A stretch of DNA of 23,634 bases, taken from the IMG/VR virus record IMGVR_UViG_3300036406_000608, positions 1 through 23,634 of that record; one strand, given 5' to 3'. The notes below the pieces were generated by a model. The model made no database searches, was not told where the DNA came from, and was given only the letters and a program-made list of their open reading frames with translations. Below are positions 19,507-23,495 of the stretch, one piece after another. The position numbers and the translations under genes were made by a program. The first letter of the stretch is position 1; every line of letters begins with the position of its first letter. The stretch is from a virus.

Positions 19507-20550
19507 CTAGGGCATGTAGTGGGTGAGGTTGTCCACCAGGCGTTCGTTGGTGGGTTCAAACTCCACGGCTTTGCCGCCGTGGAAGAGTGCTAACTCCCCG
19601 TGCCCCATGTAGTGCGCCGCGATGGCGGCGAGGTCGTGCGGTTTGGCGCCCCACGCTTCGGGTTCGCACAGGTATTCCAACGGCTGGTCTGTGACCTCGA
19701 GGGCCCGCAACGCGGCGGCGAGGGACAGGGCCCACGCGCCACGGTTGTGGTAGTGCTGCGCTAGGTCCACCCATGGTTCACGCCGGTGCGGTGACTCCGC
19801 GGTGGCTTTCAACAGCCACCGTTCAGCGTGGTCGGGCTGCAGCTGCGCGAGGTAGCGCATGGCCTTGGACCGTTCGGCATCCCACGTGGCCTTAGGTAGT
19901 GACAGGTAGCGTTGAAACTCGCCTATGGCTTCGTCCGTGTGCCCGTGGAAGAACAGTTCACGGGCGAGGTAGTAGGCGTTGCGGTCGTCCTGCGGGTCCT
20001 CGGCAACGGCCTGCCGCAACAGCGGAAAGTATTGGGAACGGGATTTGGTGGAGTCAGGGAAGTGGTGGATTTGCAGGGACACCCACCCCTGTGTTTCTTC
20101 CACTAGGGGCGTGATGACCTCGTGAACCGGGTGACGCCACACGTATCCGTGTCGAGTATGAATCTTGTCACCGCCGTACACAAGTCCCGGTGTGCCGTCA
20201 GGGTTCCATGACCACGTGTACCTGTAGCGGGGCCGTGTCCATCCTTCGCGGTGTGCTGTTTCGAGTGCGTCGCGCCAGCCAGGGACCAGCACTTCGTCAA
20301 GGTCAAGCGCGATGCAGTAGTCAATGTGGTCGGGCACGAGGGCTAGGGCGGTGTTTCGGGCGGTGTCGAATCGCCACGGCCTGATGGTGCGTTCATTTAC
20401 GGCCACGCGTGCGTCATGGGCGGCTTCCACGGTGCCGTCAGTTGATCCGGTGTCCATGAGCAGGACGTGGTCCGCGTCGTGTGCGGAGTCGGCCCACCGT
20501 TCGACGTGTTTGGCTTCGTCTTTGGCGATGCTGTAGACGGCTACCTTCAT
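19507..20550 (-). CDS. Family-2 glycosyltransferase with C-terminal TPR repeats
   Basis: 347 residues from ATG 20550 (ATGA overlap with the methyltransferase). N-terminal GT-A fold: KVAVYSIAKDEAKHVERW, DTGSTDGT (33-40) and the metal-binding acidic motif DLDEVL (83-88), then GDKIHTRHGYVWRHPVHEV. From about residue 190 the sequence becomes repeats of helices (DRNAYYLARELFFHGHTDEA, SKAMRYLAQLQPDHAERW, EPWVDLAQHYHNRGAWALSL) typical of TPR-containing protein glycosyltransferases. These often modify surface proteins. The partner enzymes lie next to it. Substrate unknown; virion glycosylation is likely. Confidence 0.85.
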   Translation of the reverse strand: MKVAVYSIAKDEAKHVERWADSAHDADHVLLMDTGSTDGTVEAAHDARVAVNERTIRPWRFDTARNTALALVPDHIDYCIALDLDEVLVPGWRDALETAHREGWTRPRYRYTWSWNPDGTPGLVYGGDKIHTRHGYVWRHPVHEVITPLVEETQGWVSLQIHHFPDSTKSRSQYFPLLRQAVAEDPQDDRNAYYLARELFFHGHTDEAIGEFQRYLSLPKATWDAERSKAMRYLAQLQPDHAERWLLKATAESPHRREPWVDLAQHYHNRGAWALSLAAALRALEVTDQPLEYLCEPEAWGAKPHDLAAIAAHYMGHGELALFHGGKAVEFEPTNERLVDNLTHYMP

Positions 20551-21056
20551 GGGAACACCGCCCAATAAGCGCCGGTTATGGTGCCGACGCGGTGCTCTTT
20601 GATGTGGGGGAACGTGTCGAGGACTTCCTCGTGGGTCCAGTCGTCTTTCACGTGCCGCTCAAACGGGTTGCCGAACTCTTCACCCTGCGGGTAGTGAACG
20701 ATAGGTATTGCTATGAGGGCGTGGCGGGCCTGGGCAGCGACCTTGTCCCACATAGTGGTGGCGTCGTCAGCGGTCATGTGCTCGAGCACGTCCCCGAAGA
20801 TGACCGCGTCATAGGCGAAGTTGGTGCGTCGTCGCACGTCTTCCACGGCCACGGTGTCGTACAGGTCCCGTAGCCCGAACAGTTCCACGTATGCGGGCCA
20901 CACCTCTGACGCGGTTATGTGACCGGTGTAGCCGATGGCCCTGAGCTCTGACGCGTAGGTGCCTTTGCCGGCGCCCACGTCTAGGAGGGTTTGGGCGTTG
21001 CTTCGGATGATGTGGTCAAGGGACCAAGGTGCGTGTTCGCGTGACGATGTGGGCAT
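20547..21056 (-). CDS. SAM-dependent methyltransferase (class I)
   Basis: 169 residues from ATG 21056 (a GTG at 21062 would give a 4-bp overlap with the preceding gene). SAM motif I is LLDVGAGKGTYASELRA, followed by ITASEVWPAYV and the post-motif FAYDAVIFGDVLEHMTADDA, typical of small-molecule or sugar methyltransferases. The C-terminal part is aromatic-rich (PFERHVKDDWTHEEV, YWAVFP). Between two glycosyltransferases it probably methylates a sugar or a glycan on a phage protein. A role on DNA or host surface is possible. Confidence 0.82.
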   Translation of the reverse strand: MPTSSREHAPWSLDHIIRSNAQTLLDVGAGKGTYASELRAIGYTGHITASEVWPAYVELFGLRDLYDTVAVEDVRRRTNFAYDAVIFGDVLEHMTADDATTMWDKVAAQARHALIAIPIVHYPQGEEFGNPFERHVKDDWTHEEVLDTFPHIKEHRVGTITGAYWAVFP

Positions 21057-21058
21057 GG

Positions 21059-21754
21059 TCACCGGACCTGTTCGGCGGCGTAGGCCGCGAGCATGTCCCG
21101 GTGGTGTGCGTCCGTGAGCACGTACCGTTTGATGTGGGGGAGCACGGAACCCGTGTGGGCGTGCACTTGGACACCGGCGGCGCGTAGCCGCTGCATGAAC
21201 GTGAGGTCTTCGCTCACCCAATTCTCGCCTGCGGGCCCGTCCTCAAACCAGCACCAACGCGCACCGACACCTGGGGCCCGCTGTTTTCTGACGGCCTCGA
21301 GGGCGTCCCGGTGCATGAGTAGGCAGCCCGCGCCTGCGGCGTCCACGGGCACGAGCTGGTCGGGCGGGTAGTCGTGGAACGCTGCCCAACGCCCGTCCCC
21401 GTTGTCTTTGTAGATGGCGGGCACGGGCATGGGGTACATGGGTGCGGGATAGGCGGCGAAGCACAGGGCCGACACCACGGGGGCCTTGACGGCGTGGGCG
21501 GCTTCCAGCATCCGGTCAAACGATTCCAGGGGCAGGCGGTGGTCCGTGTCCACCATGAACAGCCAGTGGCTTTTGCTGCCCTCGAGGAACGTTGACACCA
21601 GTTCGTTGCGCGCCCGTGACAGTAGGTTGCCCTGCACCCGTATGAGCCCGCTGACGCGGTTTCGGCGGGTCAGGGTGAGGTGGGCAAGGTCCGCGGCGAA
21701 CGCGCCTTCGACCTGGCCCCCGTCAATGAACCCAATTTCAATGGTTTCCTTCAT
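21059..21754 (-). CDS. Glycosyltransferase (GT-A fold)
   Basis: 231 residues from ATG 21754, with the AAAGGGGAAACAC box directly before it. After a helical N-terminus (QGNLLSRARNELVSTFLEGS) comes HWLFMVDTDHRLPLESFDRM with the D-T-D metal motif (69-71), then VVSALCFAAYPAPMYPMPV, GAGCLLMHRDAL and a segment VSEDLTFMQRLRAAG near the end with an E-D pair, all features of GT-A glycosyltransferases. It is the first gene of the three-gene modification cassette. The donor and acceptor are unknown. Confidence 0.8.
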   Translation of the reverse strand: MKETIEIGFIDGGQVEGAFAADLAHLTLTRRNRVSGLIRVQGNLLSRARNELVSTFLEGSKSHWLFMVDTDHRLPLESFDRMLEAAHAVKAPVVSALCFAAYPAPMYPMPVPAIYKDNGDGRWAAFHDYPPDQLVPVDAAGAGCLLMHRDALEAVRKQRAPGVGARWCWFEDGPAGENWVSEDLTFMQRLRAAGVQVHAHTGSVLPHIKRYVLTDAHHRDMLAAYAAEQVR

Positions 21755-21907: not shown

Positions 21908-22126
21908 ATGAACACTCGACACACCACCATCAGCCGCGCCAAGGTCGCGCAGGTCGGCAAGGCGTACACGGACACATGGCTTGGCACTCAGGTTGTCTTC
22001 ACGGCCTATGACGGCACCCGCACGGTAGGCACCATCACCCGCTGGGATGACCTGTACCCCGTCGCCACCTTTGCCGATGGCACATGGGCGCGGCTTGGCC
22101 TTGACGTTGAGGTCGTCAATGCCTAA
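21908..22126 (+). CDS. Small protein of unknown function, first gene of plus-strand module
   Basis: 72 residues from ATG 21908 with AGGGGG upstream; a longer frame from 21794 covers the promoter and is rejected. Residues 1-24 are basic and helical; residues 25-72 alternate strands (GTQVVFTAYDGTRTVGTITR, YPVATFADGTWARLGLDVEV) suggestive of a small beta-barrel or SH3-like fold. It overlaps the next gene by 8 bp. Function unknown; together with an RHH partner it could be a toxin/antitoxin-like pair or a switch protein. Confidence 0.7.
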   Translation: MNTRHTTISRAKVAQVGKAYTDTWLGTQVVFTAYDGTRTVGTITRWDDLYPVATFADGTWARLGLDVEVVNA

Positions 22127-22262
22127 CGCCCCAAAGACTCCCAGCCGTAATGTGCGCGTGCCAGACGACCTCTGGCACGCTGCCATGTCCAAGGCACTAG
22201 ACCGTGGCGAGTCCCTGTCGGATGTCATACGGCGTGCCCTTGAGAAGTACGTCAAGGGCTAG
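22119..22262 (+). CDS. Ribbon-helix-helix (Arc/MetJ/CopG-like) DNA-binding protein
   Basis: 47 residues from ATG 22119, overlapping the previous gene by 8 bp. After a basic arm (NAPKTPS) comes RNVRVPDDLWHAAMSKALDR then GESLSDVIRRALEKYVKG: one beta strand (RNVRVPD) that enters the major groove as a dimer and two helices. This is the minimal RHH fold. RHH dimers bind tandem short repeats, matching the duplicated GGTGTACCTACAC in its own promoter, so autoregulation is likely. The last 66 bp overlap the 3-prime end of the convergent dcm gene. Confidence 0.82.
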   Translation: MPNAPKTPSRNVRVPDDLWHAAMSKALDRGESLSDVIRRALEKYVKG

Positions 22263-23387
22263 AGCCGCCTGCTGGGGCACGACGCCGTTGCCTAATGCCT
22301 TGAGTTGGTCATTGCGGCTGATGCCTATGGCGGGGTCTGTGACGTGCCCGTCTGGCAGGCCCATCATCCATTCCACGAAACGTGGGGCTAGGCGGGGATT
22401 CCCTGTACGTCCAGGCTCAGTTGGTGCTGGTGCGGGTCGTCCGATGACGTGTTCCCATCGGGCGATGACGGGGCCATAATCGCCCCAGGCAAAAGGCGAT
22501 TGCCCTCTATGACCGTTCGCAGGTTCGGTGTGAAATCGTCCCTCTGAAGGTTGCCCATTTCTGCCAAGGGTGTGGGCAGTAGCCTCATGGCCTCTATCGC
22601 CAGCGACCTGCCATGCGGGGCTGGCCTGCCGTCCGACGACTTCTGACGGGGCGCCCAGTCGTCCCACCATTCTAGCGTCTTGCCCTCGCCCATGTCGTTC
22701 ACGGCTGGCGTCGGGAGCAAAGTCGTCGGACCCGCAGGCGCACCCACAATTACCTTGGCCGCATCCAACAGCGTCATGCCGTGACCCCATGCGGGGTTGT
22801 AGCCCCCCGAGGCGTGCTCGGTTGTCGGCGTCGGCAGCATCTGAACGCTGCGAGGTAGCGACGCCTGCCCCGACCAGGCCGCTGATGGGCTGCCTTTCCC
22901 GTCCCTCGCGTTGGGGGTAGGCAAGGATGAAGAGTCGAGCACGCTGATGGCAAGCTCCGGCGTCGGATGCTCGCACAATTCCCCATTGTGCAGACCACCC
23001 CACGCTGGCAAGGTCAGCGAGGACAACGTCAAAGCCCAGAGTGAGGTGGCCTCGGACGTTTTCCAAGACTGCGAGTCGTGGTCCCATTTCGCGAATGGCT
23101 CGCAGGACGTGGGGCCAGAGGTGTCGCTCATCGTTGGTGCCTTTCCGCAGGCCGGCGTGGCTGAATGGCTGGCATGGGTAGCCGCCTGTCAGCACGTCGA
23201 CGGGCTCAATGGTCGTGAAGTCCACCTGAGTTACGTCGCCGTAGTTGGGCACGTCGGGGTGGTGGTGGGCAAGGATGCGGGAGGGCGCCTTGTCGTACTC
23301 GACGTGCCACGCGACCTGGCCGCCCAGCACCGAGCTGACGGCCATGTCTAGGCCGCCGTAGCCGCTGAATAGTGAGCCGATTCGCAC
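22197..23387 (-). CDS. dcm: DNA (cytosine-5) methyltransferase
   Basis: 396 residues from GTG 23387, which has GGGGAGGT seven bases before it (the frame runs on to 23432). Motif I RIGSLFSGYGGLDMA, motif IV GGYPCQPFSHAG with the catalytic Cys 72, motif VI VLENVRGHL, motif VIII CHQRARLFILAY, and at the C-terminus WGDYGPVIARWEHVIGRP, FVEWMMGLPDGHVT and motif X LKALGNGVVPQQA. Between about 160 and 310 the protein is a low-complexity Gly/Arg/Ala/Asp-rich stretch with repeated A-D-A, unlike a normal target recognition domain; this is the region with the nested second reading frame. It methylates cytosine in an unknown sequence and would protect phage DNA from restriction. Confidence 0.94.
   Translation of the reverse strand: MRIGSLFSGYGGLDMAVSSVLGGQVAWHVEYDKAPSRILAHHHPDVPNYGDVTQVDFTTIEPVDVLTGGYPCQPFSHAGLRKGTNDERHLWPHVLRAIREMGPRLAVLENVRGHLTLGFDVVLADLASVGWSAQWGIVRASDAGACHQRARLFILAYPQREGRERQPISGLVGAGVATSQRSDAADADNRARLGGLQPRMGSRHDAVGCGQGNCGCACGSDDFAPDASRERHGRGQDARMVGRLGAPSEVVGRQASPAWQVAGDRGHEATAHTLGRNGQPSEGRFHTEPANGHRGQSPFAWGDYGPVIARWEHVIGRPAPAPTEPGRTGNPRLAPRFVEWMMGLPDGHVTDPAIGISRNDQLKALGNGVVPQQAALALDVLLKGTPYDIRQGLATV
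22388..23131 (-). CDS. Nested +1-frame ORF inside dcm: LPTP-repeat protein (possible overlapping gene)
   Basis: A 247-codon frame from ATG 23131 (GGAAAGG eight bases upstream) to 22388, on the same strand as dcm and wholly inside it. The product starts MSDTSGPTSCEPFAKWDHDS, has LPTP at residues 70-73, 99-102, 139-142 and 185-188 each followed by a polar/acidic segment, an unusual KTLEWWDDWAPRQKSSDGRP and a tail with SSPDGNTSSDDPHQHQ. From memory, LPTP-repeat proteins of this kind are annotated with phage cytosine methylases. But LPTP in this frame is the shifted reading of A-D-A in Dcm, and long shadow frames are common in this GC-rich DNA. It may be real, a conserved shadow, or both. Confidence 0.4.
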   Translation of the reverse strand: MSDTSGPTSCEPFAKWDHDSQSWKTSEATSLWALTLSSLTLPAWGGLHNGELCEHPTPELAISVLDSSSLPTPNARDGKGSPSAAWSGQASLPRSVQMLPTPTTEHASGGYNPAWGHGMTLLDAAKVIVGAPAGPTTLLPTPAVNDMGEGKTLEWWDDWAPRQKSSDGRPAPHGRSLAIEAMRLLPTPLAEMGNLQRDDFTPNLRTVIEGNRLLPGAIMAPSSPDGNTSSDDPHQHQLSLDVQGIPA

Positions 23388-23495
23388 AGGTGATACCTCC
23401 CCGACTGCGAGGATGGCACAGGCGGCTGACATTGCGGCGTGTCGGAAAAGTGATTAGCGACGAGGGTTTATCGGTTTCGTCAATTGGCAAGTTCG

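Follow-up and report, generated by a model that had tools for sequence, protein, structure and literature searches.

In single-chain C5-cytosine methyltransferases, the target-recognition domain (TRD) usually lies between motifs VIII and IX of the same chain; two-subunit members do without it. In the multi-specific C5 methyltransferases of Bacillus phages (SPR and its relatives), the variable region contains several short recognition units arranged in tandem. The small gene of EcoHK31I is reportedly nested in the large gene in another frame, a description attributed to Lee et al. in 1995. M.EcoHK31I (YGGCCR) consists of two polypeptides; motifs I-VIII and X are on the large chain and motif IX is on the small one, and the predicted recognition domain was placed in the large chain (PMC3404938). 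M.AquI (CYCGRG) is also two-subunit, and part of its recognition region is on the second polypeptide (PMC3404938). The actinophage methylase group has been studied in detail twice, and an unrelated out-of-frame HNH insertion was described (PMC9957025, PMC11855218). Text searches of these two papers gave no mention of a subunit, a nested gene or LPTP, and no report of the LPTP frame described below was found in the open-access literature.

The window analyzed here is the whole 23,634-nucleotide stretch of the IMG/VR record IMGVR_UViG_3300036406_000608. It is a phage record, and PHROG profile matches indicate genes for terminase, portal, capsid and integrase. Its dcm-like gene, here called alpha, entirely contains a second open reading frame, beta, on the same strand in the +1 frame (Table 1). 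An earlier sequence-only reading had proposed this nested LPTP frame; its coordinates and length were correct, and the strand is minus. The four LPTP motifs and the W-W-D-D-W segment that it had listed are both present in the beta translation, the former starting at amino acids (aa) 70, 99, 139 and 185 and E-W-W-D-D-W occupying aa 154-159.

Table 1. Features of the nested methyltransferase locus in the window.
Feature	Position	Strand	Basis or remark
alpha, dcm-like C5-cytosine methyltransferase	23432..22197	minus	411 codons/aa; Pfam PF00145 and phrog_363
alpha catalytic part, motifs I-VIII (aa 16-173): LFSGYGGL, PCQPFS, ENV, RASDAGACHQRARLF	22914..23387	minus	PF00145; invariant columns of alignment A2
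nested beta gene, +1 frame, 247 codons/aa, four LPTP motifs	23131..22388	minus	openness, third-position divergence, phrog_1008
beta start ATG, across alpha codons 101 (GAT) and 102 (GAG)	23131-23129	minus	NAT conservation at alpha 101
SD-like GGAAAGG, encoded by alpha Arg-Lys-Gly	23146-23140	minus	present; no excess over synonymous recoding
stretch coding in both frames: motif VI-VIII region of alpha, N-terminal segment of beta (aa 1-72)	22914..23131	minus	GC3 drop, fourfold-site divergence
LPTP module 1, beta aa 70-98	22838..22924	minus	translation
LPTP module 2, beta aa 99-138	22718..22837	minus	translation
LPTP module 3, PAVNDMG...EWWDDWAPRQ type, beta aa 139-184	22580..22717	minus	module type known from other loci
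LPTP module 4, beta aa 185-213	22493..22579	minus	translation
alpha motif IX (NPRLAPRFVEWMMGLPDG), again in alpha frame	22329..22400	minus	motif scan; phrog_1008 C-terminal part
alpha motif X (GNGVVP, aa 381-386)	22275..22292	minus	motif scan; invariant columns of A2

The best explanation, with a probability of roughly 0.78, is that the locus encodes a single C5-cytosine DNA methyltransferase as two overlapping polypeptides, with the target-recognition region carried by the nested beta subunit. The 411-aa alpha would provide motifs I-VIII, a poorly conserved stretch, and then motifs IX and X. The 247-aa beta, starting at the ATG inside alpha, would provide an N-terminal segment followed by LPTP modules in the target-recognition position. 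Beta would be translated separately from its own start, bind alpha, and supply sequence specificity in trans. The genomic context suggests that the methyltransferase may protect the phage DNA from host restriction.

The C5 motifs I, IV (PCQ), VI (ENV), VIII, IX and X are all found in alpha, in order, and are conserved in A2. The phrog_363 profile matches alpha over aa 11-396 (E 1e-69), and PF00145 matches aa 17-176 only (E 1e-35). The alpha reading of aa 177-310 is rich in A, D, G and R and has no Pfam domain after aa 176, in agreement with the low complexity in place of a recognition domain noted in the sequence-only reading. The usual single-chain TRD between motifs VIII and IX is absent from the alpha frame, and the conserved frame there is the +1 frame. 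Beta has no Pfam or NCBIfam match. A tblastn search of the phage collection with beta returned no match at 1e-5, while the dcm query returned 1578 records; since beta is short and repetitive, profile or locus-based comparison is needed instead. The profile search, one of the checks proposed earlier, connected the nested protein with a phage methyltransferase family: beta aa 1-201 match positions 61-235 of phrog_1008 ("DNA methyltransferase") with E 9e-19. Positions 226-320 of the same profile match alpha aa 311-399. Beta proteins of other loci also match phrog_1008. In phrog_1008 the LPTP part runs on into motifs IX-X, whereas the window has them in two frames. The profile matches thus indicate that a single known family is distributed over two frames in the window.

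Relatives (loci labelled L###) were gathered from IMG/VR, phage records and bacterial genomes, and a motif scan revealed several layouts. Motifs IX and X are both in alpha in about 48 loci including the window. In about 29 loci, motif IX is in beta and motif X mostly in alpha, which is the motif split of M.EcoHK31I. The window differs from M.EcoHK31I in that alpha has both IX and X, beta lacks IX and is a string of LPTP modules, and the conserved frame of the recognition region is that of beta. Plasmids searched with one of the IX-in-beta relatives yielded many C5 methyltransferases, none identifiable as EcoHK31I. M.AquI resembles the window in having the recognition region partly on a second chain, and the layout of L044, where IX and X are both in beta, is similar to it. 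However, the small chain of M.AquI has IX-X and half of the variable region, while the window keeps IX-X in alpha and its beta is fully nested. The SPR-type enzymes share the serial short units in the variable region, but they are a single chain in one frame, and the role of the LPTP units in specificity is putative. M.EcoHK31I is the precedent; a beta with the TRD only, the shuffling of modules between frames, and the breadth of distribution appear to be new.

A long +1 ORF with LPTP motifs is observed at the equivalent place in nearly all viral relatives. Because conserved codons cast conserved shadows, the openness of this frame was compared with synonymous recoding of alpha using the codon usage of each locus. 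Among 73 representatives, one per 80%-identity cluster, 52 have the +1 frame open throughout alpha codons 103-174, against 10.6 expected (P 4e-38, with representatives treated as independent, which is only roughly true). The +2 control is open in 7 representatives against 12.3 expected. Counting all loci, 73 of 87 have an open +1 frame (13.7 expected) and 17 an open +2 frame (15.9 expected). For the window itself, only 0.5% of the recoding trials kept the +1 frame open. At fourfold-degenerate alpha sites, pairs with an open +1 frame show a divergence of 0.283 before the overlap and 0.200 inside it (P 1e-4), a region-versus-region comparison that within-gene recombination, frequent in these methylase genes (PMC9957025), could skew. 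Pairs with a closed +1 frame show no drop in the overlap (0.464 vs 0.458). The suppression is weak in the window's own clade. Ordinary Dcm genes used as controls (L196, L203, L211-L214) have no such nested frame. The sequence comparisons show both frames to be under selection and together indicate that beta is a real gene and not a shadow. The proposal of two conserved overlapping frames, a methylase and a second protein, was thus borne out by openness, synonymous sites and profile; the homologues searched for stops and for normal synonymous variation, as the earlier reading had advised, mostly kept the nested frame open and showed reduced variation in dcm over the overlap.

The frame that is conserved changes along the gene. 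In the window, GC content by alpha codon position is 67/44/86 ahead of the nested start and 76/63/56 beyond motif VIII, where the GC-rich position is the third position of beta. At codon 101, the site of the nested ATG, alpha GC3 drops from 84% to 62%, and it recovers to 72% after the nested stop. Most relatives show the same shift to the third position of beta, and AT-rich ones such as L051-L053 show it in the opposite sense; codon-position GC tracks beta in the recognition region and alpha on either side. Aligned as DNA in a frame-neutral way, the recognition region shows 641 substitutions: 406 at the third position of beta, and 111 and 124 at the other two. Between the window and L007, the corresponding numbers are 12, 1 and 1. 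An alignment of the region in the beta frame gives 67% identity for beta and 48% for the alpha reading. Both frames are constrained at codons 101-173, beta is the conserved frame after motif VIII, and dcm alone is conserved after the beta stop. From the substitution and GC patterns, the alpha reading between motifs VIII and IX is a drifting shadow. The earlier suggestion that either frame may be the shadow of the other is thus divided: neither is at codons 101-173, and the dcm frame is after motif VIII. Even so, 64 of 69 cluster representatives keep alpha open over the beta tail, against 5.3 expected from synonymous recoding of beta (P 1e-99), as do all 21 AT-rich loci (0.1 expected). Alpha has to be read across this region to get to motif X and, in the window, to motif IX too.

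Two classes of nested start are seen. The ATG proposed earlier lies at the same point in many loci, and NAT at alpha codon 101 is found in 24 of 39 cluster representatives, above the expectation of 11.8 (P 5.5e-6). Among loci without the early ATG, AGA or AGG is used in ENVRG in 13 of 22 (1.84 expected, P 1e-9), and with these rare codons an AGAGGA-like site stands some seven bases ahead of a GTG. This second start, with the AGA codon in ENVRGLLS, lies some 30 codons downstream of the ATG position; members of the class include L017, L019, L021, L022, L029 and L101. The conserved starts support separate initiation of beta. The GGAAAGG site named earlier is present, but its use as separate evidence for initiation was dropped, as the Arg-Lys-Gly codons of alpha yield it anyway and anti-SD pairing before the beta start across homologues is no stronger than synonymous recoding predicts (p = 0.27).

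The openness of the alpha tail and the position of the starts bear on programmed frameshifting, in which ribosomes would make one enzyme by leaving alpha past motif VIII for the LPTP frame and re-entering alpha before motif IX. The order of parts in single-chain relatives is identical to that expected from such a product, and phrog_1008 covers the LPTP frame plus motifs IX-X. However, the layout of the window needs two shifts, and frameshifting leaves unexplained the openness of alpha over the whole beta tail, the conserved beta start upstream of motif VIII, and the constraint on beta in the overlap upstream of the putative shift. It is unlikely, although it survives best among the alternatives to a two-polypeptide enzyme.

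In L038, L106, L130 and L134, a single alpha-frame chain contains motifs I-VIII, LPTP modules, IX and X in this order. Module 3 of the window (LPTPAVNDMG...EWWDDW) is of a type that 13 loci have in the beta frame and that L031 and L134 have in the alpha chain. Modules that can stand either on a chain of their own or within the methyltransferase chain are, in all likelihood, parts of one enzyme, which would place the recognition region on beta. It is most likely, from this placement, that beta makes the DNA-target-recognizing part of the enzyme. Four loci (L096, L101, L089 and L067) have LPTP modules in the alpha as well as the beta frame of a single gene: a short beta carries modules of its own, and more modules follow in the alpha frame ahead of motif IX.

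Structure prediction gave no confident fold for LPTP, either in beta or in the single-chain relative L038. The beta model is poor (pLDDT 59.5, pTM 0.28) and has no match in PDB; aa 12-57 are modelled with moderate confidence as a small beta-beta-alpha-beta-beta unit, and the rest has low confidence. The L038 model is a C5 methyltransferase matching M.HhaI (Z 22.4, rmsd 4.2, 250 residues), in which the LPTP modules lie between motifs VIII and IX and the LPTP stretch is modelled as disorder. That no recognition-domain fold is predicted for beta would fit a separate accessory protein, for example an inhibitor, a chaperone or an anti-restriction factor, overlapping dcm by happenstance. The same LPTP modules, however, occupy the recognition position in single-chain methyltransferases, and beta itself contains motif IX in the EcoHK31I-like loci and both IX and X in L044. 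An accessory protein is thus improbable, marginally more so than frameshifting. The "accessory protein" of the sequence-only reading was right as to a second protein, and "accessory" is better replaced by a subunit carrying the target-recognition region.

The beta N-terminus does mirror alpha motifs in places, as WKTS mirrors LENV, and the SD-like site is accounted for by alpha codons, as would be expected if beta were an unexpressed shadow of conserved dcm codons. This is very improbable, being contradicted by frame openness, third-position divergence, codon-position GC and start-codon conservation, and by the control Dcm genes without the nested frame. Least probable of all is an out-of-frame homing endonuclease insertion of the ShiLan-domain type (PMC11855218): actinophage methylases of this group, the same host gene group, do contain insertions of this kind, in which an HNH reading frame is concealed out of frame within the methylase, but these are mobile insertions with an endonuclease and beta is neither, having no HNH or other endonuclease match in Pfam, PHROGs or NCBIfam, beginning within conserved motifs with no insertion boundary, and being present in nearly all relatives, bacterial genes included.

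The nested LPTP frame extends to bacteria. LPTP-like motifs occur in the +1 frame of about 51 of the 80 bacterial loci retrieved with an alpha alignment, and the carriers belong to Actinomycetota, Pseudomonadota, Bacteroidota, Bacillota, Verrucomicrobiota, Planctomycetota and Chloroflexota. Ordinary Dcm genes of this bacterial set, used as controls, lack the frame. To our knowledge, few long, fully nested gene pairs on one strand are conserved across phyla. The nested pair is old, and the parts of one enzyme would be divided between its two frames. We would give even odds to a widespread C5 class in which specificity resides in exchangeable LPTP modules encoded in a frame different from that of the catalytic core; the modules would move between loci and frames, and specificity could be swapped by recombination with both frames kept open. 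The two-chain design would offer a direct way to test specificity supplied in trans.

Nearly all inspected phage records annotate dcm alone and miss the nested frame. By our reading of these loci, the nested gene is missed by annotators in many phages and bacteria. The "low-complexity" Dcm stretch would be a wrong-frame reading of the recognition region, so specificities are not predictable from the annotated protein. The record of Rhodococcus phage ReT1v-2 (L085, LC859274.1) annotates the nested frame (1775-2449) as "hypothetical protein"; only a C-terminal scrap (2527-2679) is annotated as DNA methyltransferase there, and the alpha frame is open but not annotated whole.

Another class of nested +1 ORF was observed in other Dcm genes (L133:2203-2691, L135:2308-2751 and L209:407-856). 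It ends with LSxVLETG..FFLS..AC.GILRRAEKRGK.LP, and neither Pfam nor PHROGs gave a match for those of L133 and L209. These ORFs possibly encode another kind of recognition subunit. Near the methyltransferase gene of the window, predicted glycosyltransferases are found on the minus strand at 19507-20565 (phrog_13126) and 21059-21754 (phrog_34859); a link of these genes to DNA modification is conceivable from their location. On the plus strand, a 47-aa ORF at 22119-22262 (MPNAPKTPSRNVRVPDDLWHAAMSKALDRGESLSDVIRRALEKYVKG), ribbon-helix-helix-like by eye, converges on dcm with a 66-base antisense overlap with its 3' end.
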